A DNA stretch of 64,000 nt, from positions 1 to 64,000 of the forward strand of contig CALVDQ010000005.1 in the NCBI GenBank assembly GCA_944326325.1, in the 5' to 3' direction. The stretch comes from an uncultured Bacteroidales bacterium (GTDB lineage: Bacteria > Bacteroidota > Bacteroidia > Bacteroidales > UBA932). Of this stretch, positions 9,222 through 34,782 are shown in pieces (position 1 is the first letter of the stretch; each line of letters starts with the position of its first letter). The notes under the pieces are model-generated. The model made no database searches. It had not been told where the DNA came from and saw only the letters and a program-made list of their open reading frames with translations. Made by a program: the position numbers and the translations under genes.

Positions 9222-10871
9222 TCAAAAGGGAAAAAGTTCGGCATCATCCCAATAACAGAATCCTTTCCCGTTATGTTCAAGAGAGATGACCACCCACGGA
9301 TTGACGGCGGTAAAACTTACTTCTGCCTTCACATAATCCTCCGAAGTCCCGGAATACATGATGGAGACCTCTGCCTTCTCTTTTCCGAGGGGATCGAAGC
9401 CCATTGCCCGTAACGTTGCCGACGGGACCTCACCGCTACCGTCCGTACGTACGAGCTTCACCCATGCGCTGATCCTGTATTTCCGTCCCGGCACCACCCC
9501 TTCTACAAGGCGTCTGCAGCGGTTTGCCGTGATACCCTTCGAATCAATGGAAGCTGCAGGCACGAAATCTATCGGACTCATCTCCAGACAGTGAGACCCG
9601 GTCCGTGCTCCGCCTTCCACAATCGAGACATAGTCCCACTCCTTCGGCTCCACCCTGTCTATCCCTACGAAAGAACGTCCCCGGAAAGATACCGCCCAGC
9701 CGCGGGACTTGTCCGGCTCAGGTTCTTCGAAACTTCCGTTTATCCCCGAAGAAAGCCTGTGTGCGTATGGATTCCATAAATCCCTGTATGCGTCATATTC
9801 AAGCCGATGTACAATATAGCTACCGTCATTCGCTACAGTATCTTCCTGTATGATGTTGTACTCCCCGTCATTGCTCAACGAACCTGCAAGGGAATAAGGC
9901 ACTATGTATTTAAGCCCCAAAGCCTTCATCTGGATAAGGTCATTGCCTATCCAGTACGCCTTGAAGCGGCGGGCATCCTCCTCGGTCGCATCCGACCAGA
10001 CAAGAGGAAGAGTCAGTCTCGTGCCGTTCTCGTTGACAAGGGCAGGACGCCGTGGATATCCTGCAGCCTCGGCTTCATCCATATACTTCCACAGGTCAGT
10101 CTCGGAGTACCTGCCGTCTTCACCTATGTCCACATGCTTGTGGAAGGCGAAATAATCGCAATACCTGGTAATACCCGCCAGAAGGACCTGCCTTCCGCTC
10201 GAGGTATAGTCATATTCAGACTCGTCCTGGAGCAGACAGAGAGGGGAAGATGCCACCTTGATGTCAGGATCACAGTTCTTCAGAGTCTCGTAGACGACCT
10301 GCTGTACCTTGATAATCTGTTCCGTGGTGAGGGCCGGAGCCCCGCCGGTACGCTGTCCCTCGTTGTCCGGCTCATTCATCGGTATATAATATAAAGGAGC
10401 GTCTCCGTACCGGCGTGCCAGCAGGGTGACATACCATTCAAGATTCTTCTGCCACTGCGGACCGTAATTGTCCGGGTTCACCACAAGGGCATCCACCTTC
10501 ATCTGAAGGCAGTAACGCAGCCCGGCGGCCTCAAGTTCGGCAAAGACCTTGTCATTATACTGGAAATCAAAACTTTCACCGTATGAAATCGGCTTAATGG
10601 AACCATAGGAATTCCATATTGCCTCACGTGAGCCTATCCCTCCGAGAAGCCCGAGATGACGGATGATCTCGCTGCGTCTCCGGTTGTTCCTCTCTTCATA
10701 CGAAGGGAAGCGGTTGTAGGAATAGAGCGAAATATTGCCGTTGTAGATGACATTGCATTCAAGACATTCATCGACAGGGCCGTCCCCGTCACCGCCTGTA
10801 TCAGGTGCGTTTTTGGAGCAGCCTGCCGCGACAAGCAGGCAGACCGCTCCTGTCAGAAACGGGAATCTCAT
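9222..10871 (-). CDS. Lipoprotein glycoside hydrolase, clan GH-A-like TIM barrel plus C-terminal CBM
   Basis: This 549-residue lipoprotein has its lipidated cysteine at C18 (VAAGC). A TIM-barrel region (about 45-365) carries the clan GH-A pattern: an NE pair, N166-E167 in PMNEPDNE, as acid/base, and E281 in ALVNENGTRL as a plausible nucleophile at the right spacing. Residues about 375-549 form a galactose-binding-like beta-sandwich (starting INGSFEEPEPDKSRGW and ending FCYWDDAELFPF), as in CBM4/9-type modules. The family could be GH39 or a relative, but I cannot place it with certainty. Its start overlaps the GH3 stop by four bases. It is last in the long operon. Confidence 0.72.
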   Translation of the reverse strand: MRFPFLTGAVCLLVAAGCSKNAPDTGGDGDGPVDECLECNVIYNGNISLYSYNRFPSYEERNNRRRSEIIRHLGLLGGIGSREAIWNSYGSIKPISYGESFDFQYNDKVFAELEAAGLRYCLQMKVDALVVNPDNYGPQWQKNLEWYVTLLARRYGDAPLYYIPMNEPDNEGQRTGGAPALTTEQIIKVQQVVYETLKNCDPDIKVASSPLCLLQDESEYDYTSSGRQVLLAGITRYCDYFAFHKHVDIGEDGRYSETDLWKYMDEAEAAGYPRRPALVNENGTRLTLPLVWSDATEEDARRFKAYWIGNDLIQMKALGLKYIVPYSLAGSLSNDGEYNIIQEDTVANDGSYIVHRLEYDAYRDLWNPYAHRLSSGINGSFEEPEPDKSRGWAVSFRGRSFVGIDRVEPKEWDYVSIVEGGARTGSHCLEMSPIDFVPAASIDSKGITANRCRRLVEGVVPGRKYRISAWVKLVRTDGSGEVPSATLRAMGFDPLGKEKAEVSIMYSGTSEDYVKAEVSFTAVNPWVVISLEHNGKGFCYWDDAELFPF

Positions 10872-13363
10872 TTTACCGTTATCATTTTCCCCAGTCTGAT
10901 GTCTCCTGACGAAGAGCCGACAAGGATTTCATATTTCCCCGGATCATAGCCGAAACCGTGGATGTCCGTCTTGTAATATGAGAACGCCGATGCGTCAAGG
11001 CTGATTCTGACCTCAGCGGCAGCTCCTTTTGCAACTGACACTTTCTCAAAACCTTTCAGTTCCTTGTACGGACGCTCCACCTGCGGGTCCACAGGACGGA
11101 CATAGACCTGCACAGTCTCCATACCGTCAGAATCGCCTGTGTTCCTGACCTTCAGGGCTACCGTATATGAACATTCCGCACCTTTCTCCTTCACGACCTC
11201 AAGGTCCGAATACTTGAAATCCGTGTAGGAAAGGCCGTGCCCGAACGGGAAGAGCGGCTTGACATCGCTGCTGTCATAATACCTGTACCCGACGAAAACC
11301 CCTTCCCCGTATGCTACCCGCTTGTCTCCGTCCGGGTCATAATAATACGGACAGGCAGGATTGTCCTCCCATTTCCTGTCAAACGACATCGGAAGTTTTC
11401 CGCTAGGGTTGACATCGCCGAACAATATCTCCCCTATGGCTGTACCGCCTTCCTGTCCGGCATAATAGATATGCAGCAGGGACGGGACCTCGTCTACCCA
11501 ACGGGTAATATCCGCGCCTGCACCGGCGTTGAGCAACACTACAACGTCAGGATTGGCGGCAACAACACATTTCACGAGACTGTCCTGGTACTCCGGGAGA
11601 CAGAAAGTCCTGTCATTGCTCTCCCTTTCGCTGCTCTCGTTGAAACCGACATTCACGACCGCCACATCTGCCTTGCGGGCTATCGCCACCGCCTCGTCAA
11701 AAAGCAGACGGTCTTCACGCCATCCGAATGAGATGTCCACAGGATGCACGTTTGCAAAATACTCGAGGACCACAGGGTATTCCTTCCCGGCTTCAAGGCT
11801 CACGACAGCCTCCCGTGTAGTTATGCCCTGGTCGCGCCACTCGTTGATTATCATATCGCCGCCTACGTTGAGACGGAAACCGTCGAAGCCCCTTACCACA
11901 AATCGGTAGTCAGCCGTCTTTTCCGGACGGACGACTCCGCTCCACCTCATAGAACAGTGGTCATACGGGATACCCTTGTTCTCGGCCGCGATATGGTAGC
12001 CGTTGCCTATGTTCACTATAGTGTCGGTCTGCACGAAGTCAGGCTCGCCTTTCAAGCGGATGTTGGAGAAATATTCGGCTTTCAGACCGCGCTCGCTGCT
12101 GCCTGGAGCCGTATAGAAGACCGAATGCGCCACTGTCTCCGACAATGTAGGTACACCCGGGGCATACAGTATCTCGACATCATCCCCCGCAGCATTCCTT
12201 ATCCCGTCGAGGACAGAGACCGAATGGAACGGGAAGGTATACGAACTTCCTCCGCCTGAAATATAAGAACCCGCATTCGGCCCTATCACGGCCACGGACT
12301 TCACCTCTTTTCTGTCGATTGGCAGAAGATCTCCGTCGTTTTTCAGAAGGGTTATCCCCTCCCTGGCAAGGTCGAGGGCGACCCCGGCACCCTGGGGATT
12401 GTCATAAGGGATGGAAGTATCAAGCTGCGGGTTGTCGAAGAAGCCGAAACGGAATATGGTACGGAGAATACGCCTGACCTTACCGTCGATAACCGCTTCG
12501 CTTACCTCACCGCGCTCTATGGCAGGAATAAGGTTCTCCCTGTTCATGTACTTGCCGCGTGGCATCTCCAGATCCAGACCGCCGTTCGCCGCCTCGACGG
12601 CATCATAAGTAGCCGACCAGTCGCTCATGACAATGCCGTCAAACCCCCACATATCGCGCAGAACAGTGTTGTTGAGATATCCGTTCTGGGTTGCATGGAC
12701 TCCGTTCACGGGATTGTAGCTGTCCATCACGGCACCGGCCCCTCCTTCCTGGATCGCTGCCCTGAATCCCTCCAGATAGATCTCGTGCAGAGTCCTCTCG
12801 TCAATGTCGCTGCTGACATTGTTCCGGTCCCACTCCTGGTTGTTTGCCGCATAATGTTTCAGTGTAGCCACGACCTTCTGGTCCTGGAGTCCCCTGACAT
12901 ACTGTACGGCCACCTGGGAATTCAGGTAAGGATCTTCTGTAAAATACTCGAAATTACGTCCGCAGAGAGGTGAACGGATGATGTTCATGCTCGGGCCGAG
13001 GAGGATGTGTACGCCACGGGCACGGGAATCACGCCCGAGCTGTTCACCGAGACGGTAGACAAGATCCCTGTTCCATGTTGCGGCAGTCAGCACACTTGCC
13101 GGATATGCCGTGGAACGCCCGTCCTTGTGGGTGCCCACAGGACCGTCAGTCAACTTTATCTCAGGCAGTCCGAGACGTTCTATCCCTCTGATATAAAACC
13201 CATTGTAACCTCCGATATAATCGATTTTCTCCTCAAGGGTCATACGGCCGAGCAGATCCTCCGCACGAGCTTCCGGAGAAGCGTTGACATCCTTGTATGT
13301 CTGGGCATGGAGCCCGAATGCAAAAAACAATGCAAATACAGGTATTGTTGTTATCCTTTTCAT
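10868..13363 (-). CDS. Glycoside hydrolase family 3 enzyme with PA14 insert
   Basis: This 831-residue protein has a Sec signal peptide (about 1-20, ending LHAQ), so it is periplasmic. The GH3 barrel shows KHYAANNQE (K169, H170) and the nucleophile D248 in GIVMSDWSA. A PA14 domain interrupts the second domain at about 425-550 (GLKAEYFSN to ISFGWRED). The acid/base region follows (NESSERESNDRTF), and a fibronectin-III-like C-terminal domain completes the usual four-domain form. Family members remove terminal beta-glucosyl or beta-xylosyl residues; specificity is not readable. It sits seven bases after the SGNH gene and overlaps the GH-A-like gene. Confidence 0.92.
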   Translation of the reverse strand: MKRITTIPVFALFFAFGLHAQTYKDVNASPEARAEDLLGRMTLEEKIDYIGGYNGFYIRGIERLGLPEIKLTDGPVGTHKDGRSTAYPASVLTAATWNRDLVYRLGEQLGRDSRARGVHILLGPSMNIIRSPLCGRNFEYFTEDPYLNSQVAVQYVRGLQDQKVVATLKHYAANNQEWDRNNVSSDIDERTLHEIYLEGFRAAIQEGGAGAVMDSYNPVNGVHATQNGYLNNTVLRDMWGFDGIVMSDWSATYDAVEAANGGLDLEMPRGKYMNRENLIPAIERGEVSEAVIDGKVRRILRTIFRFGFFDNPQLDTSIPYDNPQGAGVALDLAREGITLLKNDGDLLPIDRKEVKSVAVIGPNAGSYISGGGSSYTFPFHSVSVLDGIRNAAGDDVEILYAPGVPTLSETVAHSVFYTAPGSSERGLKAEYFSNIRLKGEPDFVQTDTIVNIGNGYHIAAENKGIPYDHCSMRWSGVVRPEKTADYRFVVRGFDGFRLNVGGDMIINEWRDQGITTREAVVSLEAGKEYPVVLEYFANVHPVDISFGWREDRLLFDEAVAIARKADVAVVNVGFNESSERESNDRTFCLPEYQDSLVKCVVAANPDVVVLLNAGAGADITRWVDEVPSLLHIYYAGQEGGTAIGEILFGDVNPSGKLPMSFDRKWEDNPACPYYYDPDGDKRVAYGEGVFVGYRYYDSSDVKPLFPFGHGLSYTDFKYSDLEVVKEKGAECSYTVALKVRNTGDSDGMETVQVYVRPVDPQVERPYKELKGFEKVSVAKGAAAEVRISLDASAFSYYKTDIHGFGYDPGKYEILVGSSSGDIRLGKMITVK

Positions 13364-13370: not shown

Positions 13371-15422
13371 TCATTTTATATAATCCGATATGACTTTCTG
13401 CCATACCCTGTAGCCTTCTTCCGTAAGATGGAGACCGTCCTCACGGTAATACTCCGGTACCGGGGCACCGTCTTCGTCAAGCATATCGCTGAAGACATCG
13501 GCATAACGTGTGTTTGGCTGCGATTCGGCAAATTCCCTGATCATCACATTGGTCTCCACTATCCTGTCTATGTCTTTCATCCTCCTCGGGGAAGGCTTGA
13601 TCGAGATGAACACTATCTCTGCCTCCGGCTTTTCCGCCCTGACAAGCCGGAAAAGCTTCCTGACCTGCACCATGATCTCCTCAGGAGTCCACTTGTATCC
13701 TATGTCGTTGTCCCCTGGATACAGGAATATCTGAGAAGGATTGTAAGGGGTCACCAGATGTTCGATATAGTTTATCATATCGATTGTCTTGGTCCCGGAC
13801 ACTCCTCTGTTCAGGACATTTTTCCCGGGGAAATCCTCCTGGAGGGTCTTCCAGTTCTCCACAGTGGAACTGCCGACAAAAAGTATCACCCCGTCATCAG
13901 GCATCTTCTGCGCATCCTGGGAAGCGTATCTTGCAAGTTTCTCGTCCCATTTCAGCTGCTGCTTCAGCTTTGGGACGCCTTTTACGCGATGGACCTCAAT
14001 TGGTTTGCCCCTTAAAAGGATACGTCCGATATAGATCGCGGACTTTGCGTATTTTCCAGGATTGGCGTCGATGTCGTCATGTTCGGAAAGTATGGCACGC
14101 TTGTCTGCATCCACACTGGAAATCCTCACCGTAACCTGATGCTGCCCGTAAGGGACCTGTATCACAGCATGCTGCCCGCGGTAACGGTTGTTGCACCAGC
14201 GGTTGAAACGGTTCAGGGTGTACTCCCCCTCCCTGTCGTTGGCAAGATAATAGCCGAAACCTTTGGCAGCGCAGTTCTTCAGCTTTACGAGTTCCCCGTC
14301 TACAAGTATTTCGAGCTGCCCTGATTCCGGACCGCCTATGTCGAAGAAACCGAACATATCGCCTTCGAAGGCAAAATAGAAATACGACTCCTTGCGGGAA
14401 GAAGTGAGGACCGTATCGAACCAGCCCTGGAACTTCCGGAGTTCCGGCCGCTCAGAAGTCCTGACTGACTTCCAGTTGCCGTCATATCCGGCGATATCTG
14501 CAGGGGCGTACATACAGGCTGAATCCCATTCAGTACCGTAGAGCGGTTTTTCAGGAAGTTCATATGCCTTGGAACCTGCTCCGGACTGCATCTTGAGCAG
14601 CCCACGCGCAATTGCTGCAGCATATAGGTTCCCGCCTTCCTTCAGAGGATGTATACCGTCGTTGGAAAACAATATCCTGTCCCCGGCATTCTTCCTGGAG
14701 CCTTTCCAGATGAGCTTGCCGTCCTTCTCCAGCTGAGCAGCCTCCATACCGAGATGGATGGAAGGGATGCCGTAGTGCTCTGCCACCTGTTCGAGACGCT
14801 GTATTGTCTCCGGGACATTACCCTCCTGATATTCAGCTGTCTGACCGGTCTTTACGGTGTACAGGAAACAAATGTCGGTATGCGGGTCAGCCTCGATTAT
14901 CTTGCGGACCATGCCTTCCATGCCGGGGGCGTATGCCCCGTTCACTGCAAATTCAATGAAAACAAGGTCCGGGCTATATGCCAGCACCTGCTCGTCTATA
15001 CGGAATGCACCGAGGTCGGTCCCGGTGCCGGACACACCTGCGTTGATCCAGCTGAAAGAAGTCCCGGACCATCTTTCCTCCATGAAACGGCTGATTTGCA
15101 GACGGTAGCACCAGTCGCCCTGGGTGATGCTCCCTCCGATGAAGGCTACAGTGACATCCTCCCCCTGCGAGAGTTTGCCGAAAAAGTCCGGAAGACCTGA
15201 ACGGACTGTACATTCGAGGTCATTGTCATACTTTCCCGGAACGATGAGAGGAATATCCTCCATGTCTGCCGTGTACACCAGCGGGGATGCCCCGTCCTGC
15301 GATGCCGCGATCTTCTCCTCATCGGATGTCCCCTGCGCAAAGGCTCCGGGGAGAGGCAGGAAAAATACCGTGATTCCGGACAGGAATGCGGCGGATTTCA
15401 GTATTACGGTTCTTTTATCCAT
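13371..15422 (-). CDS. Two-domain SGNH/GDSL esterase
   Basis: This protein of 683 residues has a signal peptide (about 1-30). Two separate SGNH hydrolase domains are visible. The first (about 90-280) has FIGGSITQG with S98, NAGVSGTG, and D255/H258 in NDGIHP. The second (about 505-683) has FVGSSTVENW with S519, NRGVSGTKT, the PGDND segment with N572, and D662/H665 in DGLHL. Between them (about 290-475) lies a beta-rich region with no motif I recognise. Such enzymes usually remove acetyl or acyl groups from polysaccharides. The ATG at 15422 is preferred over the GTG two codons earlier. Seven bases separate it from GH3. Confidence 0.85.
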   Translation of the reverse strand: MDKRTVILKSAAFLSGITVFFLPLPGAFAQGTSDEEKIAASQDGASPLVYTADMEDIPLIVPGKYDNDLECTVRSGLPDFFGKLSQGEDVTVAFIGGSITQGDWCYRLQISRFMEERWSGTSFSWINAGVSGTGTDLGAFRIDEQVLAYSPDLVFIEFAVNGAYAPGMEGMVRKIIEADPHTDICFLYTVKTGQTAEYQEGNVPETIQRLEQVAEHYGIPSIHLGMEAAQLEKDGKLIWKGSRKNAGDRILFSNDGIHPLKEGGNLYAAAIARGLLKMQSGAGSKAYELPEKPLYGTEWDSACMYAPADIAGYDGNWKSVRTSERPELRKFQGWFDTVLTSSRKESYFYFAFEGDMFGFFDIGGPESGQLEILVDGELVKLKNCAAKGFGYYLANDREGEYTLNRFNRWCNNRYRGQHAVIQVPYGQHQVTVRISSVDADKRAILSEHDDIDANPGKYAKSAIYIGRILLRGKPIEVHRVKGVPKLKQQLKWDEKLARYASQDAQKMPDDGVILFVGSSTVENWKTLQEDFPGKNVLNRGVSGTKTIDMINYIEHLVTPYNPSQIFLYPGDNDIGYKWTPEEIMVQVRKLFRLVRAEKPEAEIVFISIKPSPRRMKDIDRIVETNVMIREFAESQPNTRYADVFSDMLDEDGAPVPEYYREDGLHLTEEGYRVWQKVISDYIK

Positions 15423-15511: not shown

Positions 15512-18500
15512 TTACCTGCAACCCATCGTGACTTCCCTGACAATATCTTCCTTCCCGTCTTCCGAAAGGACAATCTTCAGCGAAGCCTCTTCGTCCATGC
15601 CGAGCTTGCAGAAACTCCATTCAAAAGGATAGGAGGAAACCTCGGCCGGTTTTCCGTTGCATTCCACCCTCACCGACAGCTTTCTGTCTTTCCGGGGTGC
15701 TGTCTCTGCAAACCCGTAGACGGAATCCCATCCGAACGGAGAACGTATCCTGAACAGGAATATCTTCCCGAAAGTCTCCCCGCCATCCAGAACCTTCATG
15801 CCTTTGGAAAGTGCGGGGGCAGATGCCGCGGCCTTTGATTTCGGGAGCGGGAAAGCCACTGCCATGAAGCCTTTCGCAGGAAGTCCTGTCACGGCACAGC
15901 CGTCCTGCACAGATATCTTCCGGCTCTTGCCTGTCCCGGTATAGACCACTGCAGAGCCGGGAACCACCATGTCCGCCACCGACCCGAGCCTGACTGAGAC
16001 ATCCATGTCATCGTCCGACTCGCTTGAAAGTAGTACCCAGAAATGTTTGCCGGAAACAGCGGTCACATAGTTCACTGCCGGACTGGAGACCTCCACAAGT
16101 CCTTTCTTCATCCACAGCCTTGCGTCCTTGTCCGAGAACACGATACCTTCCCCTCCGCCGTAGATTCTGTTGGTGAACCACACAAACCCTTCCTGCAGGC
16201 TGTACGGGAAACTGACATTGCCTTCCGAACGCTGTATGCATTCCGTCACGAGGAAATCCCAGGTGAAGGCGAGGTGCGGCGGGATATGGTGATAATATAT
16301 CGAGCTGACATCCGGACCCTTGTAAGGGAAGTCCTCCGACATGGTGATGTCGGTATAGCCGGTGGCATAATAGCCTGGATAGTTCGAGAACCTGCCTATC
16401 ACGGCATTCCGCGCGTATGTCTGGTATATTTCCTTCCCGGTGTACCTGTAGAGCCGGAGGAGATGAGGTGCCCAGCTGCTCATGAACACGGGACGCACCT
16501 GCTTCCCTTTCTGCCTGAGGAAATATGTTCCCGGCTGTTCGAATCCAAGTCCTACAGGGGAAACGAGCCACTGCGGCACCTGCTTTTCCTGCACGTCGCC
16601 AGGGACACGGGGAAAACCGAGGCGGAATTTCTCCTTGCCTTTCCACCACATTGTAGTGTTGCCCTCGAACTGCCCTCCCGGGTGGATGGTCTGCATCCCG
16701 TCTTTCACGGCAGGGAAAGAACGTATGCCGGCTATAGTGCTTGCAGCCCCGTATTCAGCGGCATCGAGATATTTGCTGTCCCCTGTGATCTCGTACAGAT
16801 TGAGAAGATTCCACCATGAGGCGTAAACGTTGGAGTTGTAGAACGCCATCTGTCCGGAAAGCGAGGCAGACGGATTGTAGATATGTATTCCCATATACCT
16901 GTCTGCAGTAGACTGAGCCGTGGACAGCCACTTGCCGTCTCCTGTCATCCTGTAGGCGGAAAACTGTTCCACGTATGATACGAACGGAGCCGAATAGCCC
17001 TTCGTCTGCCTTATCTCCCCATCCGGTAAAGCTATTCCTTCCAGCCACGGATTCAGCCCGCCGAGGAGACGGCCGAGCCCTTCGTAGTAAGATGTCGTGA
17101 ACTGTGACTTGAACGGATTGAGTTCCAGGGTCTCCAAAGTCTTGTTGTAGCTTGACGGCACAAGGTCCGTCGCCCATCTGTAACCGCTTCTCGAAAGGGT
17201 GTATTCTATCGTGGGAAGGGCACGGGTGAGATAGAAATCCTCGTCATCCGAAAACACGGAAGCCGCTATTATCGCAAGAGGTGCGGAATGTACTACCGTA
17301 GGAGCCGTGCCAGGATCCCCCTCAATGTCATAGAAGCCTTTCAGGGAGTCATCCCAGCCGCCGTATTCCCGGTCTTTCATCAGGTCGATAATATTGAACA
17401 TCGCATCGGTCAGGGATGTCTCCTCCTGGTGTCTGTAATCTTTTACCTTATAGACATTTTCCGAGATATATCCGAGGGTCTCGCTCCATTTTCCCGGACG
17501 AACGCCGATGACGAACTTCCGCTCTATCCTGTCCCCTGCCGAAACCCTGGAGTCCTCCATACCCATGACAGGCGCAAAGGCTACAGGCTGGAACTCGTTG
17601 CGGTAATTCCTGAGGGTGAAGCCCATGGGAGAATAGTCCACGCTCCCCCATTCCAACGGGAATGTCGTGTCGTCACCGCTTGCAAAAGCCGACATCTGCC
17701 CTCCGAGAGCTGTACCCGACTCGACTATCGCAAGAGGCTGCTGCATCATGGATGAAAGCATCATAAGCGGCGATTCCGGGAATCTCTTGAACTGGAACAT
17801 CGGAGGCATCAGGACATTGCTGACCGAAGACTCCGGCACCGGCTGGAAGGCTGCCACACCGAGACTGTACATCCCGGATGTAGCCGCCGTGCAGGTCAAT
17901 TGCACATTGATATGCGTACCGGTCTCCGGCAATGACCATCTTCCTGTCACAGATGAGCCGTTCTTTGTGATATAAGCCACCTCAATGCAGTCCCCTTTCC
18001 GCTCTGCTGACACAGGGATAGCTTCGCTGAGTTCCCCTGACACGAACGGGTTCATGAAATCCTCATCGGCCTGCACCTGATATTCCTTCCCCTTGAATGT
18101 AAAGGTACTGAGGGCCGTGGCATTTTTCCATGACGGATAAAACTTGTCATTGTCGACAGGGCTGTCCTCCGATGTAAGGAGGAAGACCTTATGGTCCTCG
18201 GTGTTCGAATAATACCTTCTCCACATCCCACCGACATTGATTTCAGTGCGGCAGGCAAGGGCGTTTCCGGCAGCTCCGGCCAGAACGAAACTCAGCCTCA
18301 GATCAGGATTTTCTATCGAAGCCACTGTTCTCTCATTATACCCGAGCTCCATCGGAGCGGATATGTTCACAAGAGCGCCTCCTTCGGTCTGTATCCGGTA
18401 CGGATTCTTTCTCCACTTGCCTATCTCCTTGCGATCCAAGGTGTTCGGATCTACGGTCATATCCTTGATAAGGATAATGGCATCGCAACGTCCGAAATTC

Positions 18501-18919
18501 CTCTTCTCATCATGAAGCCTAAGAAGTGCCTTTCCCCTTTCCAGGCCAACCTTTCCTACATTCTCCCAATACCAGAGAGGATGACCGTGCCTGCCGGAAA
18601 CTTCCATCGGCTGTTCGTTGACACTCAACCGGAAAAGCCTTGTCCCGGGACTGTTCTCATAGTCAGCGGACCTCACCCACACGTTATACTCCCCCGCTTC
18701 AAGAATGTCCACTGCGGTAAGTGCATCATACCTTTCATCAAGGCTTCCCCCTCCACCCAGACGCAGCATCTCTATACCCATGCAGTCAGAACTGCGCTCT
18801 GTAAACCATTTGCCTTTGAACTGGAAGGCTTCCGCCTCTATCAGGTAACGATCTTTCTGTGCCGAAGCCGCAACAGCTGCAGCAAGGAAGACAAAAAATG
18901 CCAGTACGTATTGTTTCAT
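15512..18919 (-). CDS. Large secreted toroid-type protein with N-terminal CBM-like domain (family unassigned)
   Basis: This 1135-residue protein has a Sec signal peptide (about 1-20, ASAQ). Residues about 23-150 form a galactose-binding-like domain (YLIEAEAFQFKGKW, DILEAGEYNVWVRS). A beta-sandwich follows, then an alpha-helical region from about 500 to 900 with repeated aromatic and Gly-rich turns typical of an (alpha/alpha)6 toroid (YEGLGRLLGG, WWNLLNLYEITGDSKYLDAA, HLLRLYRYTG). A beta-sandwich ends the protein. It shares layout and several blocks with the next gene (WDFLVTECIQRSEGNVSFP against WIMDYLVSEAELRSDGRITFP). I cannot name a CAZy family. A glycosidase or lyase on the PUL substrate is the inference. 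Confidence 0.6.
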   Translation of the reverse strand: MKQYVLAFFVFLAAAVAASAQKDRYLIEAEAFQFKGKWFTERSSDCMGIEMLRLGGGGSLDERYDALTAVDILEAGEYNVWVRSADYENSPGTRLFRLSVNEQPMEVSGRHGHPLWYWENVGKVGLERGKALLRLHDEKRNFGRCDAIILIKDMTVDPNTLDRKEIGKWRKNPYRIQTEGGALVNISAPMELGYNERTVASIENPDLRLSFVLAGAAGNALACRTEINVGGMWRRYYSNTEDHKVFLLTSEDSPVDNDKFYPSWKNATALSTFTFKGKEYQVQADEDFMNPFVSGELSEAIPVSAERKGDCIEVAYITKNGSSVTGRWSLPETGTHINVQLTCTAATSGMYSLGVAAFQPVPESSVSNVLMPPMFQFKRFPESPLMMLSSMMQQPLAIVESGTALGGQMSAFASGDDTTFPLEWGSVDYSPMGFTLRNYRNEFQPVAFAPVMGMEDSRVSAGDRIERKFVIGVRPGKWSETLGYISENVYKVKDYRHQEETSLTDAMFNIIDLMKDREYGGWDDSLKGFYDIEGDPGTAPTVVHSAPLAIIAASVFSDDEDFYLTRALPTIEYTLSRSGYRWATDLVPSSYNKTLETLELNPFKSQFTTSYYEGLGRLLGGLNPWLEGIALPDGEIRQTKGYSAPFVSYVEQFSAYRMTGDGKWLSTAQSTADRYMGIHIYNPSASLSGQMAFYNSNVYASWWNLLNLYEITGDSKYLDAAEYGAASTIAGIRSFPAVKDGMQTIHPGGQFEGNTTMWWKGKEKFRLGFPRVPGDVQEKQVPQWLVSPVGLGFEQPGTYFLRQKGKQVRPVFMSSWAPHLLRLYRYTGKEIYQTYARNAVIGRFSNYPGYYATGYTDITMSEDFPYKGPDVSSIYYHHIPPHLAFTWDFLVTECIQRSEGNVSFPYSLQEGFVWFTNRIYGGGEGIVFSDKDARLWMKKGLVEVSSPAVNYVTAVSGKHFWVLLSSESDDDMDVSVRLGSVADMVVPGSAVVYTGTGKSRKISVQDGCAVTGLPAKGFMAVAFPLPKSKAAASAPALSKGMKVLDGGETFGKIFLFRIRSPFGWDSVYGFAETAPRKDRKLSVRVECNGKPAEVSSYPFEWSFCKLGMDEEASLKIVLSEDGKEDIVREVTMGCR

Positions 18920-27100: not shown

Positions 27101-27344
27101 TGAAATTTCCGTCAAGGTCGCTTATCGCACCGTCTTTCTTGCCGACAATGGAGATGTAGGCACCTATGACAGGCTCGCCGGTAGAAAAGTCTATGACCAC
27201 ACCGGACAATGTACGTTTGGCCTGAGAGGCGTAAGTACCGGATGCCAAGGCTCCGACCGGGAAAATGAGGCATGCGGACAACAAGGCAAGCAGCCTGTAC
27301 TTCATCTTGCCGCCATGTACACATTTGTCTTTCATATCATTCAT
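24168..27344 (-). CDS. SusC/RagA-family TonB-dependent transporter
   Basis: This 1058-residue outer-membrane transporter has a signal peptide (core from M14), a carboxypeptidase-D-like regulatory domain (about 45-118, LSGVVIDFSTGEPVIGAYI), a TonB-box-like segment EEVVVIGYGT (124-133) and a plug domain with the family signature SIDILKDASATAIYGARGAN. A long beta-barrel ends in the aromatic C-terminus TLTAGLELTF. With the following SusD it imports oligosaccharides using TonB energy. Starts at 27335 or 27305 are also possible. Only 17 bases separate it from the symporter gene, so it is inside the operon and not at its head. Confidence 0.95.
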   Translation of the reverse strand: MNDMKDKCVHGGKMKYRLLALLSACLIFPVGALASGTYASQAKRTLSGVVIDFSTGEPVIGAYISIVGKKDGAISDLDGNFKIELSPEDKEVEISCIGYKTQSYELTSADNVTIRLQTDSELLEEVVVIGYGTTTREDLTGSIGKADVDEMIKAPVANFEEMLAGRVAGVSVTSSDGQPGSDLNIVIRGTNSVTQDNSPLYVVDGFPMESAVGSTMINPEEIESIDILKDASATAIYGARGANGVVLITTKKGKVGAPVITYNGWVGVQSVTRRMDMMDPYEFVRYQLELDDHYYDVYINDERNLDYYRNVKGINWQDVLFRNALVHNHNISVRGGNEKTRYSISGSINDQDGIIINSGYQKYQGRAVLDQVIGKKLRVGINLNYTYTKKYGTVVSESNLSPTTSLMYSMLGYRPVSSVNDEDLLNTMFDDETNPNADYRVNPLMSAENEYNPLFTYNFIANAYFEWKILDNLVLKVSGGYNRINQRKEVFFNSSSRLGHKYTNDKVNGSLTNIERGNMLNENILTWSPKLNKNHNLKILGGFTLQNSTYMSSAIYSINIPNESLGIAGLDDGEITEAPITKTSNGLMSALARIDYNYRSKYLITASFRADASSKFTKKNRWAYFPSVSVAWSFAKENFMKRLDWWSTGKLRAGYGSTGNNRVSDYAAYTSMEIDPDSGYVVGNVPVKGVVPSILGNSDLKWETTNQANVGIDLGFLDDRITATVDWYYKHTKDLLLNATLAPSMGFLTAYKNVGSVSNSGLEITIDTRNIQTKNFLWTSSFNISFNRNKVLALNEDEPSLSTRVTWGNFNNAYPYIAIPGQPIAMFYGYLFDGIYQYEDFDQVGNTYVLKDGIPNNGNDRSTIQPGDIRYKDINNDGEVNTYDQTIIGNPNPDHIGGFNNYFQWKNLDLSIYFQWSYGGDIMNANRIVFEAGEPTARQSLNMFATYADRWTPENPSNTLYRVGGQGPAVYSDRTIEDGSFLRLKTVSLGYRFPTKWMQAIKVKSLRVYVSGQNLFTWTKYSGFDPEVSTRPTALTPSFDWSAYPRAMTLTAGLELTF

Positions 27345-27361: not shown

Positions 27362-29023
27362 TTATGCTGTTTTTCTTGATTTCATGATGAGCATCAGCCC
27401 GAGGGCTGCAATAATGCCGCCCACAGTCACAGGCGCGGGCCAGTCGCCGCCGGAAAGTATGCCCAAGACAACGATGATGACGCCAGAGGCACCGAGGGCG
27501 ATACCGAGCACTTTTTTGGTAAACCGGTCTGTCTGCTTCCCGGCCTCGGCATCTGCCGGGGATATTTCCTTGGACACAGACTTCTTTGATTCTATATACT
27601 CCCTGTAACGAGGGTCAGTGAACCCCTTTTTCCAAAGGATGATCTCGAGTATCACGAGCATTGCGACCGGGACCATTGCACCCACCATCATCTCGGCACC
27701 TCTGCTGAGAGAGAAGCCGAACAGCGGAGTTATAAACTTGAATATCAAATTTATGGCAAGACTCGAGAATGTCACTCCAAGGATAGTCCCTGAGGTCTGT
27801 CTCTTGGAGAAGAGCGACCAGATCACAGGAAGGTAGATAGGCACCCCTGTCAGGGCAGCCACGCTTATCACCACGTTGACGATGCCGCCCATCGACTTTA
27901 TCAGCAGGGCCACAACGACCGCGAGGACTCCGAATCCGAGGGTGGATATACGTGCAACCTTCATCAGGGTCTTTTCCGAAGTCGAAGGTCTGAGACGTTT
28001 CCATATATCATTGGTGAACACACCGGCGGAAATGTTCAGTGTGGAGTTCAGGGAACTTGCCGTGGCGAAGATCATGCCTCCGAGCATGAGACCGAGCATA
28101 CCGGCAGGCATGGCTTCCTTGCACATAAGCAGATAGGCGTCTTCATTCTGCAGCCCGGTGAGACCGGGGTTGAAGATTCGGTATATCATAGGAGGGAGCA
28201 TCCAAAGTATCGGGCTGAACAGGTAGAGAGTCCCGAAAAGCCAGCCGACCTTCCTGGAATCCTTCTCTGTCTTCACTGAAGTGTAACGCTGGACATATGC
28301 CCAGTTGCCACCGAGGAAGAACATGTTGTATATGCAGAAGGCGAATATGAACCACGGCGTGTATTCTCCCTGGAAAAGATTGAAGAAGCCCTCTGGAGCC
28401 TGTTCGAAAAGGGTCTGCACCCCGTCTATCTTTGAAAAGGAAAGAGGGATCACTATGATGAGGGCCGCAAAAAGTATTACGAACTGAAGGACGTCCGTCA
28501 CCACGACACCGCGGAGTCCGCCCACGGCGACATAGATCATGCTCAGGGCTCCGAGCACCAGGATGGACGTGGTGAGCGGTATGCCTGCCGCGACCTCCAC
28601 TATCTTGGCCACAGGATACAGGAATGAACCCGTAGTGAAAATGGAGACGGCAAGGAAGATGTAGGTGTAGATCTTCTGTGTACCGGCTCCGAACCTGTCG
28701 GTGATATACTCTGCAGCCGTAAGATTATGCGTCCGGTGCCACCTCGGGGCTATCCATGTACCGACAGCAAACCCTGCCACAGCCATAGTAAGCTGGATGA
28801 TGATTGCCACAAGTCCGTAGGAATAGGCTATGGAACCCCACACGACAAAAGTCCCGGCCGAAAAGAACCCCATAAAAAGGGAAAGTCCGCTCATTCCCCA
28901 CGGGACATCCCCGCCGCCGGCAAAGAAACTTTTCATATCCTTGCCGGTACGGGAAAAGGAGACTCCCGTTACAAGAACTCCGGCAGAAAACAATATTATG
29001 GTAATGAAATCGAGGAGACTCAT
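27362..29023 (-). CDS. Sodium:solute symporter (SSS family)
   Basis: This protein of 553 residues has 12-14 predicted membrane segments and the SSS core pattern (FFAGGGDVPWGMSGLSLF, NLTAAEYITDRFG, YVAVGGLRGVVVTDVLQF). It imports a small solute, typically a sugar, sugar acid or amino acid, with sodium across the inner membrane. ATG 29023 overlaps the stop of the FAD gene (ATGA), which settles the start. Its place between the FAD oxidoreductase and SusC suggests it imports the monosaccharide or acid released in the periplasm. Confidence 0.92.
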   Translation of the reverse strand: MSLLDFITIILFSAGVLVTGVSFSRTGKDMKSFFAGGGDVPWGMSGLSLFMGFFSAGTFVVWGSIAYSYGLVAIIIQLTMAVAGFAVGTWIAPRWHRTHNLTAAEYITDRFGAGTQKIYTYIFLAVSIFTTGSFLYPVAKIVEVAAGIPLTTSILVLGALSMIYVAVGGLRGVVVTDVLQFVILFAALIIVIPLSFSKIDGVQTLFEQAPEGFFNLFQGEYTPWFIFAFCIYNMFFLGGNWAYVQRYTSVKTEKDSRKVGWLFGTLYLFSPILWMLPPMIYRIFNPGLTGLQNEDAYLLMCKEAMPAGMLGLMLGGMIFATASSLNSTLNISAGVFTNDIWKRLRPSTSEKTLMKVARISTLGFGVLAVVVALLIKSMGGIVNVVISVAALTGVPIYLPVIWSLFSKRQTSGTILGVTFSSLAINLIFKFITPLFGFSLSRGAEMMVGAMVPVAMLVILEIILWKKGFTDPRYREYIESKKSVSKEISPADAEAGKQTDRFTKKVLGIALGASGVIIVVLGILSGGDWPAPVTVGGIIAALGLMLIMKSRKTA

Positions 29024-31311
29024 AATGCTACGTTTATTCCCATCAGGCCAGGACATACGTCGCCGTCAGGTCGGGTGAATTCTATTGTCAAGGAATGGAC
29101 AGAAACGGCTTTTTCAAGCCTTATGCGGTTGACTGTACGGTAATTGTCCGTCATGTGGACAAGTTCGTTCCCTGCGGAATCGAAAATCCGGTATTCGCGG
29201 TAGCAGCAAGGCATCACGGAGTCGTAATGCCCCATCTGGACGGATTCCATGGCATGGTCGGAATCCGTATCGAAATAGAGGATTATCTCCTTGACCTGCC
29301 GTACGTCCGTCCATTCGAGCCTGAGCATCGGGGATACATCCTCAACCGCCGCCACCCAGGCATTTGTACCGATATACGGACGGAAATAGCTGTTCCTCAG
29401 GTTTTCCGCGCTGAAGGCATCGAGAGCCCTGGTGAATTTCATCGCGATGTTCTTCCCTTCCGGACGTCTCTTCGGGCACCAGAATTCGAAAGTCTCCACC
29501 CCGATGCCTTCAGGCGGGGTCTGTTTCCCGAAGTTGGACACAGCCGGATTGATATGGTTGAATACCGAAGTCAGTCCTGTCACCAGACGTCCTGAAAGAG
29601 GTATCCTTACCCTGGCGTTGGTCATGAAACAGAGGAATACATAGCGAGGAGAGGTGTACGTAAAGTCGAAATCTACAGAAATTTCATTCATTCCCTTGAT
29701 CAGACTTATCTTCCGGACGGAATCCGTGGTGTCAGGGGTATAGTTCTCCGGCTTTGCCGAACTCCTGAGCTCGACTGTCAGCTCGGTATTGCTGTCTGCC
29801 TCTACTGTCATCGTGAACCCGGGCACCCTGTCTTTCACCGGGATGAGTTCTGCGGCAGGATATTCGAGACGGAACCATGTGCCGTCATGAGGGAGTTCGT
29901 CAAGGTTCAGTTCAGAAGATACTGAAACAGTAGCTTTTTCCATGAGATTGCCGTCATTTTCCATGGTTACTCCCGGGATGAAGTTGCCGTTGCGGATGAG
30001 CATGTCCTGAAGGACTTTGATATTCTCCGGGGCTGCAATGTCAGCCGGAGCAAGTTTCCTGCCGATGCAGATTGCCGCCGCCCTGCCTATCGCCTCGCCT
30101 CCGAGAGCAGCCGTGCACATGACCCTTGTGGAGCCGTTTGCCACATGACTCGAAGACATGATCCTGCCTCCGATGAACAGGTTGTCGAGGTCCGGGGTCA
30201 CATAACAGCGGTACGGAATCTGGTAGACTCCCTTGCTGTGCCACTGGTGGCAGCCGTTGCCTCCTGCATAGACCCCGTCGGAAGGATGCAGATCTATGGC
30301 CCATCCTCCGTATGCCACGGCATCATAATGCCTGCGCTGCTCTATCAGATCCTGCTGGATTATGGTATAAAGCCCTGTAAACCTTCTGCTTTCCCGCTTT
30401 CCAGGGAAGAGACCGGCCCATTCGAGGGTAAGGTTCTGCGCCTGAGGGAACTTCCCTGAATTCTTGATATAGTCCCAGACTCCGTAAACCACCTTCCAGA
30501 GTTCGAACTTGATTTCTTCGGTATCGTACACCGTGTCGAGACGTCCTCCATACTCGAGCCACCAGTATTTGCATCCCTGTTGCCCCGGGTTGAAATAGTC
30601 CGGGTTCGAAAGTTTCGGGATACGCTTCTCCGCATCCTTCAGGGCAAAGTCCGGAGCCGTGAACCTCACAGGCTTCCCGGCATCCTTCATGTAGAACAGT
30701 ATGCTATGCCCGAGCAGTTCCCCGTATTCTGCCTTGTCAGGAGCGAAACCTTCCCCGTACACATTCCTGTCCTCCGCGCCCATACGGAACGACGCCCCGG
30801 TCAGATATCCGAGGGTGCCGTCGCCCGTACAGTCTGCAAAAAGCCTTCCGGAGATCTGGTATTCAGTGCCGTTCTGAGGGTTCAGTGCCGTGACCGAGGA
30901 GACGGTCCTGTTGTCCTTTTTCTCCGCCTTGTAGAGGACGGTATTCAGGAGAAGAGTAATGTTTTTTTCGTTCAGCACCTTGTCAATCAGCACCATATCG
31001 AAGAGGACAGGGTTCCCTTCCTTGTTCCTGAACGTGTTTTCCACGAGTATTTCGTCCATGATGCCGCCTTCGCGGGACCAGCGGTTGTTGTTCCCCATAT
31101 GCGAGGTGGCACCGAGTGCCCAGAGACGGACTTCGCTCGATGCGTTCCCGCCAAGGACCGGACGGTCCTGGACCAGGACGACCTTCAGACCTTCGCGGGC
31201 AGCGGCGATGGCGGCACATACACCGGTGAGGCCGCCTCCTGCAACGACGAGGTCCGCATCGAGGTTGACTTTGACGAAGTCACGTTTTCTTTCAAGTTTG
31301 TCGAATGTCAT
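29020..31311 (-). CDS. FAD-dependent oxidoreductase (FAD_oxidored type) with C-terminal beta-sandwich
   Basis: This 763-residue protein lacks a signal peptide, so it is probably cytoplasmic. A Rossmann FAD site starts at residue 20 (DLVVAGGGLTGVCAAIAAA; G25, G27, G30), followed by LGGNASSEVRLWALGA and the second FAD motif DNLFIGGRIMSSSHVANGSTRVM, as in the FAD_oxidored family (PF12831). Residues about 470-763 form beta-sandwich modules (SVSSELNLDELPHDGTW onward) of a discoidin-like kind. Reaction unknown. Members often accompany glycan loci, so oxidation of a sugar or sugar acid is an inference. First gene of the ten-gene run, coupled by ATGA to the symporter. Confidence 0.85.
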   Translation of the reverse strand: MTFDKLERKRDFVKVNLDADLVVAGGGLTGVCAAIAAAREGLKVVLVQDRPVLGGNASSEVRLWALGATSHMGNNNRWSREGGIMDEILVENTFRNKEGNPVLFDMVLIDKVLNEKNITLLLNTVLYKAEKKDNRTVSSVTALNPQNGTEYQISGRLFADCTGDGTLGYLTGASFRMGAEDRNVYGEGFAPDKAEYGELLGHSILFYMKDAGKPVRFTAPDFALKDAEKRIPKLSNPDYFNPGQQGCKYWWLEYGGRLDTVYDTEEIKFELWKVVYGVWDYIKNSGKFPQAQNLTLEWAGLFPGKRESRRFTGLYTIIQQDLIEQRRHYDAVAYGGWAIDLHPSDGVYAGGNGCHQWHSKGVYQIPYRCYVTPDLDNLFIGGRIMSSSHVANGSTRVMCTAALGGEAIGRAAAICIGRKLAPADIAAPENIKVLQDMLIRNGNFIPGVTMENDGNLMEKATVSVSSELNLDELPHDGTWFRLEYPAAELIPVKDRVPGFTMTVEADSNTELTVELRSSAKPENYTPDTTDSVRKISLIKGMNEISVDFDFTYTSPRYVFLCFMTNARVRIPLSGRLVTGLTSVFNHINPAVSNFGKQTPPEGIGVETFEFWCPKRRPEGKNIAMKFTRALDAFSAENLRNSYFRPYIGTNAWVAAVEDVSPMLRLEWTDVRQVKEIILYFDTDSDHAMESVQMGHYDSVMPCCYREYRIFDSAGNELVHMTDNYRTVNRIRLEKAVSVHSLTIEFTRPDGDVCPGLMGINVAL

Positions 31312-31444: not shown

Positions 31445-33409
31445 TTATTCGAGTGAAACTGTCTGGAGAGGGGTGTCGCGGATGCAGCGGATGGAGTAGC
31501 CGCGGGCACGATCTGCCGTACCTGATTGAATTCGTGTATCTGATATATGAATTCTACGCGCCTCTGTTTCATCAGCACCAGGTGTATTGCACCATAACCC
31601 GACAGCACTTCCAATATAAGTAATATTACCGCTTGTCGCATTGTTCCCATAACCTGCAGCAGCAAAATGCAATGGACTTTCAGCCATATCATTCAGTGCC
31701 CCAATTGTCTCCTTCTCATATCTTGACGTGATTTCCTCATCTATATTGAGTATCGTACCTATCATTAAATACATTTCTTCCGCCGATGGGAGACGATACC
31801 CTTCAGGACATGGATTATTGACTTGGGTTTTACTACCAAGAGGCGCAGCATAACTCTGGCTTATTCCGGTTCCGGCTTCATTACCTCCTCCCCACAAACC
31901 ATAAGCAGATGTGCTGCTATCTTCTACCCAGTCTCCTGTTGACAAAACAAATGCATTTGTACCAGGATTTTCCCGATTTAACGGCTTTTCTGACGATGAA
32001 TAGCTACGTCCGCCATAATTTCCTGAAGTACTCCATTTAATCTGCTCATGACCGTCCGCTTTCCTTGACCACTGGAAACTTGACCCGTAAGCCAAATGGT
32101 CATTATATGCCGTCGCGACCTGGGAAGCCCCGAGATTCCTGTCAAGCCAGGTCTGCACGACCGTCTCGCCGCCAGCATCGGTCACCTCTATATTTACAGG
32201 CAGATAAAGCTTGTCATAATAGCTGTCCCCGTTACCATAGTTGAGGTCCTTGACACCATTGACCGTCACCTCGCAGGTCGCAGTCGACTGTGCTTCATCA
32301 TTTGCAGTAGCCGTGACAGTAGCTTTACCATGTCCCACCGGAACAAGGATTCCGTTTTCAACCCTGACCACATACTGGTCTGAAGTCGACCATACTATCT
32401 CTGTAGCGCCTTCAGGCATTGCTGTAGCCGTAAGAGTGACTGTCTCAGGATTCGGATCTGTAAAGAAATCATAGCTTACGCTTGTCTCATTCAGCGCGAA
32501 CTCGCCCGTAGCTGCAGGCTCGACTTTCACTGTTGTCGTGTTCATGGTACCTGCAACGAAATTCAGCGGTTTGGAAAGATTTTTCTCGAATCTGGCAGTC
32601 CGGCCGTCCGCAGTCACAGACACAAAGATGGTCTCGTTGGCCGCCAGCGAGAAAGGAGCCACAGTCAGATAGAAACTCCCTGTTCCGTCAGGCTGAATCT
32701 CGGCTCCGGTTACATCCAGTGAAGCAGATGCGGATACCCTTGTATCGTCAGCGGTAAGGGCCCCGCTCTCCGGATTGACATGGAATTCTCCTGAAAGGGC
32801 GGCCGAAGTGCTGGTGGAAAGGGTTATATTTGATACGGAGATTGCCGACCCGGTACCGTTATTGACTTTGACCTCAATAAGCGAGGTGATATGCTGCATG
32901 GGAACGGAAGTGGAGAGTCCCGCCCCGGCAGTATGTCCGCTTAAATCCAGGTATCCGCAAAGCGGAGCATCAATATGGGCGCCGGAGCCAGTTCCTGTCT
33001 GGGTCTGGGATTGTCCGGCAGCCGAACCCACGACAACGGTCGCTACGGTATTGCCGTCGGAGATGGATGTCTGGTTTTCGGAATAAGGATATATTACACT
33101 GAGTCCGGTCATTGTCCCGGTCAATGCAAAATCCCCGTCGGATTCGAATACATTGTCACCGGAGGCAGACCTCACGAACCTGTATCCTGAATAAGTCCCG
33201 GCATCGCACGCAATTACGGAAAGGGCGTCATCCTCGTCCCACTCCACATAGAGGTTTTCCGGTGTAGGTGTAAATGTAGTCTTAGTCGATGATATCTCGG
33301 CAACGAGCTTGAATGTCTCTTCTGAAACGGCCTTGTTCTCATCAAGGTCTGTCACCTGGCAGCCTGCAAGCACTATTACAGCAGCCATAGGTATAAACGC
33401 CTTCTTCAT
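31445..33409 (-). CDS. Fimbrillin-like lipoprotein with Big_2 and Fib_succ_major domains
   Basis: This protein of 654 residues has lipobox cysteine C17 (VLAGC). Residues about 30-290 resemble a fimbrillin-like beta domain (YVEWDEDDALSVIACD, SVIYPYSENQ, NFVAGTMNTTTVKVEP). A bacterial Ig-like Big_2 domain follows (EIVWSTSDQYVVRVENGI, ATVTATANDE). The last 230 residues match the Fibrobacter succinogenes major paralogous domain pattern (VQTWLDRNLGASQVA, NPCPEGYRLPSAEEM, GYSIRCIRD). It is probably a surface adhesin or glycan-contact protein. The DNA of the C-terminal domain looks richer in A+T than the rest, so it may be a recent graft. ATG 33409 is chosen because it opens the signal peptide. Confidence 0.75.
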   Translation of the reverse strand: MKKAFIPMAAVIVLAGCQVTDLDENKAVSEETFKLVAEISSTKTTFTPTPENLYVEWDEDDALSVIACDAGTYSGYRFVRSASGDNVFESDGDFALTGTMTGLSVIYPYSENQTSISDGNTVATVVVGSAAGQSQTQTGTGSGAHIDAPLCGYLDLSGHTAGAGLSTSVPMQHITSLIEVKVNNGTGSAISVSNITLSTSTSAALSGEFHVNPESGALTADDTRVSASASLDVTGAEIQPDGTGSFYLTVAPFSLAANETIFVSVTADGRTARFEKNLSKPLNFVAGTMNTTTVKVEPAATGEFALNETSVSYDFFTDPNPETVTLTATAMPEGATEIVWSTSDQYVVRVENGILVPVGHGKATVTATANDEAQSTATCEVTVNGVKDLNYGNGDSYYDKLYLPVNIEVTDAGGETVVQTWLDRNLGASQVATAYNDHLAYGSSFQWSRKADGHEQIKWSTSGNYGGRSYSSSEKPLNRENPGTNAFVLSTGDWVEDSSTSAYGLWGGGNEAGTGISQSYAAPLGSKTQVNNPCPEGYRLPSAEEMYLMIGTILNIDEEITSRYEKETIGALNDMAESPLHFAAAGYGNNATSGNITYIGSAVGLWCNTPGADETEARRIHISDTRIQSGTADRARGYSIRCIRDTPLQTVSLE

Positions 33410-33572: not shown

Positions 33573-33617
33573 AATATCATAGTTATTAATATTCAGTCTT
33601 CTAACCTGCGGCCGACA

Positions 33618-33625
33618 CAAAGTTA
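33618..33625 (-). promoter_or_regulatory. -7 box for the peptide/fimbrillin-like pair
   Basis: The minus-strand octamer TAACTTTG matches TAnnTTTG. It gives a leader of about 39 nt to ATG 33572 and rules out the longer upstream reading of the same frame. Confidence 0.55.
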
Positions 33626-33676: not shown

Positions 33677-33717
33677 CGATTGGGAACGGTTGTTTTTTCT
33701 GCAACCGTTCCCAATCG
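33677..33717 (-). terminator. 16-bp perfect inverted repeat after the LacI gene
   Basis: CGATTGGGAACGGTTG (33677-33692) is the exact reverse complement of 33702-33717, with a nine-base loop. On the minus strand it is followed by GCGTTTTTC, which suits a terminator 18 bases past the LacI stop. Each arm also contains AACGGTT or AACCGTT, a short palindrome of the kind LacI-family proteins bind, so an operator role is possible. Confidence 0.7.
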
Positions 33718-33735: not shown

Positions 33736-34782
33736 TCAGATCATATCCCTCGCAGGATCCGATGACCCCCTGATATTCAGGGAAGCATTGAGGATCACCT
33801 TGCGAGGCTCACTGTCCGGATCCTCGATCTTCTCAAGCAGCAGACGCGCCGCAGTCTTGCCCATCTCCTCGAGAGGCTGGGCCACGGAAGACAGGGCCGG
33901 GACTGTCACCAAGGCGGACTGCGACTCCGAAAACCCCATCACAGACACCCTTCCAGGGACATCCACCCCGCTCTTGAGCAGCGCCCTCATTGCCCCGATA
34001 GCCAACTGGTCGTTGAAGCAGAACAGCCCGTCCGGCACCGCGTTGCTCCCGATAAGCTGCGACATCAACCTGTAGCCTTCGTCACGTGTAATATCCCTGG
34101 TAAGGACAGTCTGCGCCGGGTCTGTGCTCAGATGATGCTTCACAAGAGCATCCGCATACCCTCTGTACCTGGCGTTGGAAAGGTCTATGTTCAGCGGTCC
34201 CCTGAAATGCATGATACGCGGGACATCCTGACCGAGGCCGCGTCTGGTATAGATAAGGTGTTCGGTAGCGAAAAAAGACCATTTGTAGTCATCTATGCTC
34301 ACGCTCGAAGCCTTGATGGAATTGTCCGTACGGTTGAAAAACACGAGCGGAATGCCTTTGGCAAGAAGTTCCTCGTAGTAGGCGGTGTTCCTGCCCTTGG
34401 CTGCCACCGAGATCAGGATTCCCTCCACCATATTGTCTTCCAGGAGCTTGAGGTTCCGTCTTTCCGCCTCCCAGGATTCGTCGCACTGTGTGATCAGGAC
34501 CCTGTAGCCCTCTTTCTCGAAGACATTCTGTATCTGGATGATAATCCTTGGGAAAAACGAATTCAGAAACTCCGGAACAACCACACCTATTGTCTTCGTC
34601 CGGCTCTTGGTAAGGTTCCTCGCCATATAGTTCGGCTTGTACCGCATCGACGCCGCCATATCCTGCACGGCCTTCCGGGTCTCCCGGCTGACATTGGGAT
34701 GGCCGGCCAGTGCCCTCGAAACGGTGGATTTCGAAATACACAGTTCGCGGGCTATGTCCTTTATGGTCGGATTATGTCTCAT
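33736..34782 (-). CDS. LacI-family transcriptional regulator
   Basis: This protein of 348 residues has an N-terminal LacI helix-turn-helix (about 6-30: IKDIARELCISKSTVSRALAG) and hinge helix (YMARNLTKSRTKTIGVVVPE). A periplasmic-binding-like sensor domain follows (ILISVAAKG, GLFCFNDQLAIGAMRALLKSG, SVMGFSESQSAL). It binds a sugar or sugar derivative and changes operator affinity. The 40 extra upstream codons (to 34902) are rejected because the HTH begins right after ATG 34782. It lies next to the PUL it may control, but 16 bases after the metallo-hydrolase gene, so it may be transcribed with that gene. Confidence 0.93.
   Translation of the reverse strand: MRHNPTIKDIARELCISKSTVSRALAGHPNVSRETRKAVQDMAASMRYKPNYMARNLTKSRTKTIGVVVPEFLNSFFPRIIIQIQNVFEKEGYRVLITQCDESWEAERRNLKLLEDNMVEGILISVAAKGRNTAYYEELLAKGIPLVFFNRTDNSIKASSVSIDDYKWSFFATEHLIYTRRGLGQDVPRIMHFRGPLNIDLSNARYRGYADALVKHHLSTDPAQTVLTRDITRDEGYRLMSQLIGSNAVPDGLFCFNDQLAIGAMRALLKSGVDVPGRVSVMGFSESQSALVTVPALSSVAQPLEEMGKTAARLLLEKIEDPDSEPRKVILNASLNIRGSSDPARDMI

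Follow-up and report, generated by a model that had tools for sequence, protein, structure and literature searches.

A recurrent Bacteroidota PUL that joins SusCD and hydrolases to a sodium symporter and a predicted cytoplasmic FAD oxidoreductase

Gene content and regulatory features of the locus

We analyzed a 64,000-nucleotide stretch of DNA (the window) from an uncultured Bacteroidales bacterium, the relevant features of which are listed in Table 1. An ORF check of the window found all ten ORFs (10/10) of a minus-strand block spanning 9222-31311. Read from 31311 to 9222, their order is FAD_oxidored, SSS, SusC, SusD, DUF5017, T1, T2, SGNH, GH3-PA14 and GHx. This is the block that had been described in an earlier, sequence-only reading, and the families assigned there are supported by Pfam and TIGR04056. 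The close packing that it reported is correct as to the widest intergenic gap, which is 89 nt and lies between T2 and SGNH (start ATG at 15422), but not as to its four ATGA-type overlaps, as only three are found at junctions (FAD/SSS, DUF5017/T1 and GH3/GHx). Its LacI neighbor does lie beside the block and opens with an ATG where that reading had put it, although its title skipped a 681-codon ORF that separates LacI from FAD. This intervening ORF matches Mfa_like_1, Big_2 and, weakly, FISUMP, and likely starts at the ATG at 33409.

Table 1. Coordinates of genes and regulatory elements at the locus.
Feature	Position	Strand	Evidence or remark
LacI-family regulator	33736..34782	-	PF00356 + Peripla_BP_3
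Operator-like dyad TTGGGAACGGTTGCAG-N3-AAACAACCGTTCCCAA, also written TTGGGAACGGTTGCA-N-CAACCGTTCCCA	33680..33714	.	kept in four genomes
-7 box TAACTTTG (TAnnTTTG)	33618..33625	-	TTA--TTTG kept in four genomes
Surface-type lipoprotein, fimbrillin-like + Big_2 + FISUMP regions	31445..33409	-	Pfam
FAD_oxidored protein, predicted cytoplasmic, C-terminal CBM32/F5-8-like sandwich	29020..31311	-	PF12831; AF2 + VIA-align
SSS-family sodium:solute symporter, ATGA-coupled to FAD	27362..29023	-	PF00474; junction
SusC/RagA TonB-dependent transporter	24168..27344	-	TIGR04056, 952 bits
SusD lipoprotein	22502..24133	-	PF07980 + PF14322
DUF5017 lipoprotein	21579..22472	-	PF16409; lipobox visible in sequence
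T1, exported beta-sandwich + (alpha/alpha)6 toroid protein	18952..21582	-	structure model, profile homology
T2, exported toroid paralogue of T1	15512..18919	-	hhalign; N-terminal module matches
SGNH/GDSL esterase, tandem two-domain	13371..15422	-	PF13472, two stretches; GGSIT/DGIHPL + GSST/DGLHLT motifs
GH3 glycosidase, PA14 insert	10868..13363	-	PF00933, PF01915, PF07691, PF14310
GHx, lipoprotein	9222..10871	-	NEP + VNENG motifs; 70% orthologue in G296
DUF4493-DUF6359 lipoprotein	8023..9105	-	Pfam; 73% orthologue directly 3' of SGNH in G023

The locus has the sequence features that mark a PUL, namely an adjacent SusC/SusD pair (TIGR04056, PF07980), linked carbohydrate-active enzymes (GH3 and SGNH, both above cut-offs) and a linked LacI gene with a conserved dyad as its candidate site. 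The symporter scores 138 bits against PF00474 (gathering cut-off 22.8) and 179.9 bits against TIGR00813, slightly under the cut-off of 184. GHx has no family in Pfam, NCBIfam or the PDB, where phmmer returned only chance caspase matches; from its two motifs it is a probable clan-A-like glycosidase. The DUF4493-DUF6359 lipoprotein is possibly the last operon member. Read directly, the N-termini of SusD, DUF5017, GHx, DUF4493 and the FISUMP protein are of the lipoprotein type, those of T1, T2, SGNH and GH3 are ordinary signal peptides, SSS belongs to the inner membrane, and the FAD protein carries neither a lipoprotein signal nor a signal peptide. Elsewhere in the window, positions 44001-50000, downstream of glycosyltransferase-like genes, have a GC content of 0.44-0.48 as compared with about 0.52 in the remainder.

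The dyad lies just 3' of lacI in the window and in three further genomes (G433, L082 and G023), within surrounding sequence that has diverged, and in all four it is followed by the conserved TTA--TTTG box. This box matches the Bacteroidota-type -7 element (consensus TAnnTTTG). Near-perfect 16-mer palindromes between divergent lacI genes and PULs number 32 versus 7.6 in shuffles, and those at divergent lacI loci are of the type TCGGAAACGTTTCCGA or TTGGGAACATTCCCAA, a family that the window dyad matches. In G023 the next gene after the dyad is FAD. The conserved dyad and promoter box indicate that LacI very probably regulates the PUL; a hairpin that terminates lacI is another possible role of the dyad and is compatible with its reading as an operator. 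The interval from the -7 box to the FISUMP gene contains a short ORF (MKHDTSNDATLYVAPEISVMEISVEKGFAQSGEESYGFTVPDYGFGFEF) at about 33430-33600.

Conservation of the locus across Bacteroidota

The whole gene order recurs in sister genomes at 65-94% identity. Specifically, the order is kept in G307, G296 and L082 to the end of the contig or fetched stretch, SGNH, GH3 and GHx included, with identities of 76-93% for SusC, 65-94% for SusD, 67-82% for T1 and 78-90% for T2. FAD is 80% and 76% identical in the congeneric genomes G307 and G296, and 73% in L082. G433, L082 and G023 each have a LacI orthologue (72-75%) at the corresponding position. In G433, G296 and L082 the LacI and FAD genes flank a 50-59% orthologue of the FISUMP-type lipoprotein, the gene for which is lost in G023.

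Scanning genome contigs with the FAD alignment, we obtained 80 loci at 52% identity or above, every one of them in Bacteroidota. Neighbors were clustered in a set of 88 loci, made up of the scan loci, the window and eight loci from the same genus or family (two of these eight repeat scan records). In this set SSS is a neighbor in 72 loci, SusC in 51, SusD in 47, LacI in 39, T1 in 34 and T2 in 27, with GH2, SASA, GH97 and GH43-like partners in subsets. The Chitinophaga pinensis order is LacI / SusC SusD DUF5017 SSS T1 T2 SGNH T2b FAD, and GH3 and GHx, being absent from it, are by this comparison accessory. Bacteroides cellulosilyticus and B. stercorirosoris have SusCD and T1 with FAD and SSS, in loci that also contain SASA, GH29, BD-FAE esterases, GH127, GH3, SGNH and a beta-helix protein; it is in B. 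stercorirosoris that DUF5017 and SASA were identified. Among 296 phylum-wide genomes a FAD orthologue occurs in six and T1 in four; all four T1-bearing genomes are among the six with FAD, and T1 lies within about 15 kb of it. The synteny search that the sequence-only reading had proposed thus yielded a conserved order both in related genomes and across the phylum, contrary to what it had expected of a chance block. Its impression of a mix that matches no standard PUL was wrong in part, as the 88 loci and the C. pinensis core reveal a recurrent Bacteroidota PUL type and not a one-off. Judged by comparative genomics, the ten genes are confirmed as one genuine, widely conserved Bacteroidota PUL.

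A reduced form of the locus is found in G023, where the flanks are as in the window (TPR and metallo-beta-lactamase genes upstream, dnaK downstream). This genome retains LacI (74%), FAD (74%), SSS (84%), the first SGNH domain (65%) and DUF4493 (73%), and is missing the FISUMP gene, SusCD, DUF5017, T1, T2, the second SGNH domain, GH3 and GHx. Because the full order is present in other congeners and distant relatives, the difference is more simply explained by loss, and G023 appears to represent a deletion state. Recent insertion of the PUL block between SSS and SGNH was rejected in view of the full order in G307, G296, L082 and distant relatives. The retained genes suggest that LacI-FAD-SSS-SGNH is a module with a use of its own. 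G023 also has a second locus (L018/L019, G023:C4:47181-63240) with LacI, SusCD, a FISUMP protein and two tandem toroid proteins, without FAD or SSS, and with a neighbor that is GH106-like by eye.

Several related loci contain gene fusions at operon boundaries. SSS forms an in-frame fusion with SGNH in G023 (L051:6378-9500) and with SusC in G433 (C6:17626-20434, L161), in both cases with the downstream signal-peptide-like stretch kept, and SGNH is fused to GH3 without the GH3 signal peptide in G296 (C13:2372-6889, L162). Such fusions may be genuine polyproteins or may have arisen in assembly.

The flavoenzyme, its linked symporter and the toroid proteins

The FAD protein scores 295 bits against PF12831 (cut-off 27) and carries the Rossmann glycine motif VVAGGGLTG. 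Analysis of its AF2 model (pLDDT 78.6, pTM 0.81) with VIA-align indicates a GR2-type FAD domain, best matched by a geranylgeranyl-reductase-like protein (Z 17.0) and close also to fumarate reductase and Thi4, followed by a C-terminal sandwich of the CBM32/F5-8 type (Z 16.9, rmsd 1.9). By sequence profile the match to solved structures is limited to the Rossmann motif region. A literature search, made without most subscription journals, CAZy and PULDB, found no functional study of PF12831 or FAD-dependent oxidoreductases in PULs and no functional description of this gene combination. A Rhodothermus GH3 paper was set aside as a precedent, as the neighbor mentioned there is unrelated, and no FAD protein is mentioned in a paper on Maribacter and arabinogalactan.

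With localization called by a hydropathy rule, a signal peptide is absent in all of the about 86 FAD orthologues (at least 51% identity). Their Rossmann strand is preceded by about 15-18 residues, the few exceptions being over-long predicted starts. More distant relatives, at 31-41% identity, do have a signal peptide, and in one group of these exported relatives the N-terminal module corresponds to T2 residues 26-195. The N-terminal module of one exported FAD_oxidored protein has a weak Golvesin_C match.

The presence of the symporter follows the same division. Among 84 informative FAD proteins lacking a signal peptide, three of which belong to the otherwise exported clade, 70 have a same-strand SSS gene no more than 6 kb away; some FAD loci have no SSS inside the 10 kb flank. 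In contrast, only 2 of 21 relatives with a signal peptide have SSS within this distance, and in both exceptions (G216, L151) a FAD protein without a signal peptide is in the same locus. A further 35 signal-peptide-bearing proteins from an order-wide sample, in which some stretches were only 5 kb, showed no SSS by BLAST or SSS HMM. The Fisher value of 3e-10 for this association is not readable as a probability because the proteins are related; the loci share descent and the counts are not independent trials. For this reason the argument is carried by a second case, three proteins without a signal peptide (two copies in G075C6 and one in G097C7) that nest in the exported clade with a support of 100/100 and that have SSS adjacent. 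This is apparently an independent instance of signal-peptide absence with SSS, although as a replicate it is a single nested clade of three proteins. In G097C7 (L055:13962-16802), a 947-codon ORF combines a complete LacI-type regulator, the N-module and the FAD_oxidored domain, with SSS as the gene immediately after it. Overall these patterns support a cytoplasmic location for the FAD protein and a link between it and the symporter. An exported FAD protein, which the sequence-only reading had named as contrary to its proposal, was not seen in any orthologue, and its idea of symporter import followed by a cytoplasmic flavin step gains strong comparative support. This support does not extend to its view that the product is oxidized in that step.

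T1 and T2 are full-length homologues of each other (hhalign E 1.9e-56) that neither Pfam nor NCBIfam places. The AF2 model of T1 (pLDDT 85.9, pTM 0.89) predicts a beta-sandwich followed by an (alpha/alpha)6 toroid, a fold that profile homology would transfer to T2. For T1 residues 339-748, VIA-align Z values reach 18.7, with AGE epimerases and GH76 at about 18 as the highest scorers; these matches are statements of fold, not of function. The top Foldseek match of T1 is the polysaccharide lyase BACCELL_00875 (5nok/5no8; Z 17.6), which we take to be PL27. It shares the architecture of T1 at about 10% identity, and a sequence-profile search gave no match to 5nok/5no8 at E up to 1. GH127 beta-L-arabinofuranosidases show weak local Pfam similarity to both toroids, but T1 and T2 score 17.3 and 19.5 bits against PF07944, under the curated cut-off of 24.9. 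None of the labels GH127, GH76, AGE epimerase and PL27 was adopted for T1 and T2, as the similarity is weak or at the level of fold.

Proposed pathway and relation to known systems

The gene set, its conservation, the presence or absence of signal peptides, the linkage of cytoplasmic FAD to SSS and the operator-like dyad were obtained by computation, and they probably describe a LacI-controlled PUL for surface capture, periplasmic cleavage, SSS import and a cytoplasmic flavin step. The substrate would be an acylated glycan or oligosaccharide, brought into the periplasm by SusC together with the surface lipoproteins SusD, DUF5017, the FISUMP-type protein and probably GHx. The SGNH esterase would strip acyl groups there, GH3 and the paralogous T1/T2 pair would generate a small product, and the symporter would move this product into the cytoplasm. 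There the product would undergo a single redox reaction, most likely a dehydrogenation, catalyzed by the FAD_oxidored protein, and would so pass into general metabolism. All of the hydrolases act outside of the cytoplasm and the FAD protein is the only recurrent cytoplasmic enzyme in these operons, as no other recurrent cytoplasmic or downstream catabolic enzyme was found among about 250 further same-strand operon members of the 88 loci. We infer the order of these steps, the direction of the redox reaction, and that the FAD protein acts on the product carried by SSS.

The flavoenzyme could instead reduce or isomerize, with T1 and T2 acting as toroid lyases that release an unsaturated sugar, which SSS imports and the flavoenzyme saturates or rearranges at its double bond. 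We regard this as unlikely. The folds nearest to the FAD domain do include flavoproteins that reduce C=C bonds (fumarate reductase, geranylgeranyl reductase), but similar Z scores are found throughout the GR2 flavoprotein superfamily. Likewise, a lyase heads the Foldseek matches of T1 and neither GH88 nor GH105 is among the neighbors scanned, but the highest scores of T1 are to toroids of the epimerase and GH76 types, and no sequence-level tie to a lyase family was found. A role of the FAD-SSS pair as a general module for sugars or cofactors, one that accompanies PULs without acting on their product, is likewise improbable. The retention of the pair in G023 after hydrolase loss and the wide variation in adjoining hydrolases from locus to locus would fit such a module, but the phylogenetic profile of FAD with T1, the conserved gene order, the ATGA coupling and the position inside the PUL speak against it, and the other SusCD and toroid locus of G023 could supply a substrate. 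A chance assembly of genes without shared function, for which the unusual mix is the sole argument, is contradicted by an order conserved across genera and orders and can hardly be entertained.

In comparison with canonical Bacteroidota PULs, this locus shares the SusC/SusD pair, surface lipoproteins, a periplasmic esterase with glycosidases and a linked regulator. It differs in that the regulator is LacI, that an inner-membrane SSS and a cytoplasmic FAD_oxidored protein are built into the operon, and that its main toroid enzymes fall outside of Pfam and NCBIfam families. Oxidative glycoside cleavage, which goes through 3-keto intermediates (PMC10628242), also employs a redox enzyme in glycoside catabolism, but the flavoprotein here is of a different family. 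No Gfo/Idh protein or DUF1080/3-keto-disaccharide hydrolase was detected by Pfam or NCBIfam among the ten genes; one B. stercorirosoris neighbor has a weak PF06439 match. Each part is of a known kind and the locus is a PUL; the combination is a recurrent variant.

A bolder version, in which the flavoenzyme is the sole intracellular step of a phylum-wide pathway and handles a chemically unusual sugar (unsaturated or keto, for instance) from the new toroid pair, is doubtful; if true, this pathway would replace the usual NAD-dependent or GH88/GH105 routes. The proposed pathway assigns an uncharacterized family, FAD_oxidored, to a definite step of glycan catabolism. It also predicts that exported and cytoplasmic FAD forms catalyze equivalent reactions on either side of the inner membrane, with the switch accompanying SSS. 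Culturable carriers, which include Chitinophaga pinensis, Bacteroides cellulosilyticus, Pedobacter and Maribacter, make the substrate findable.
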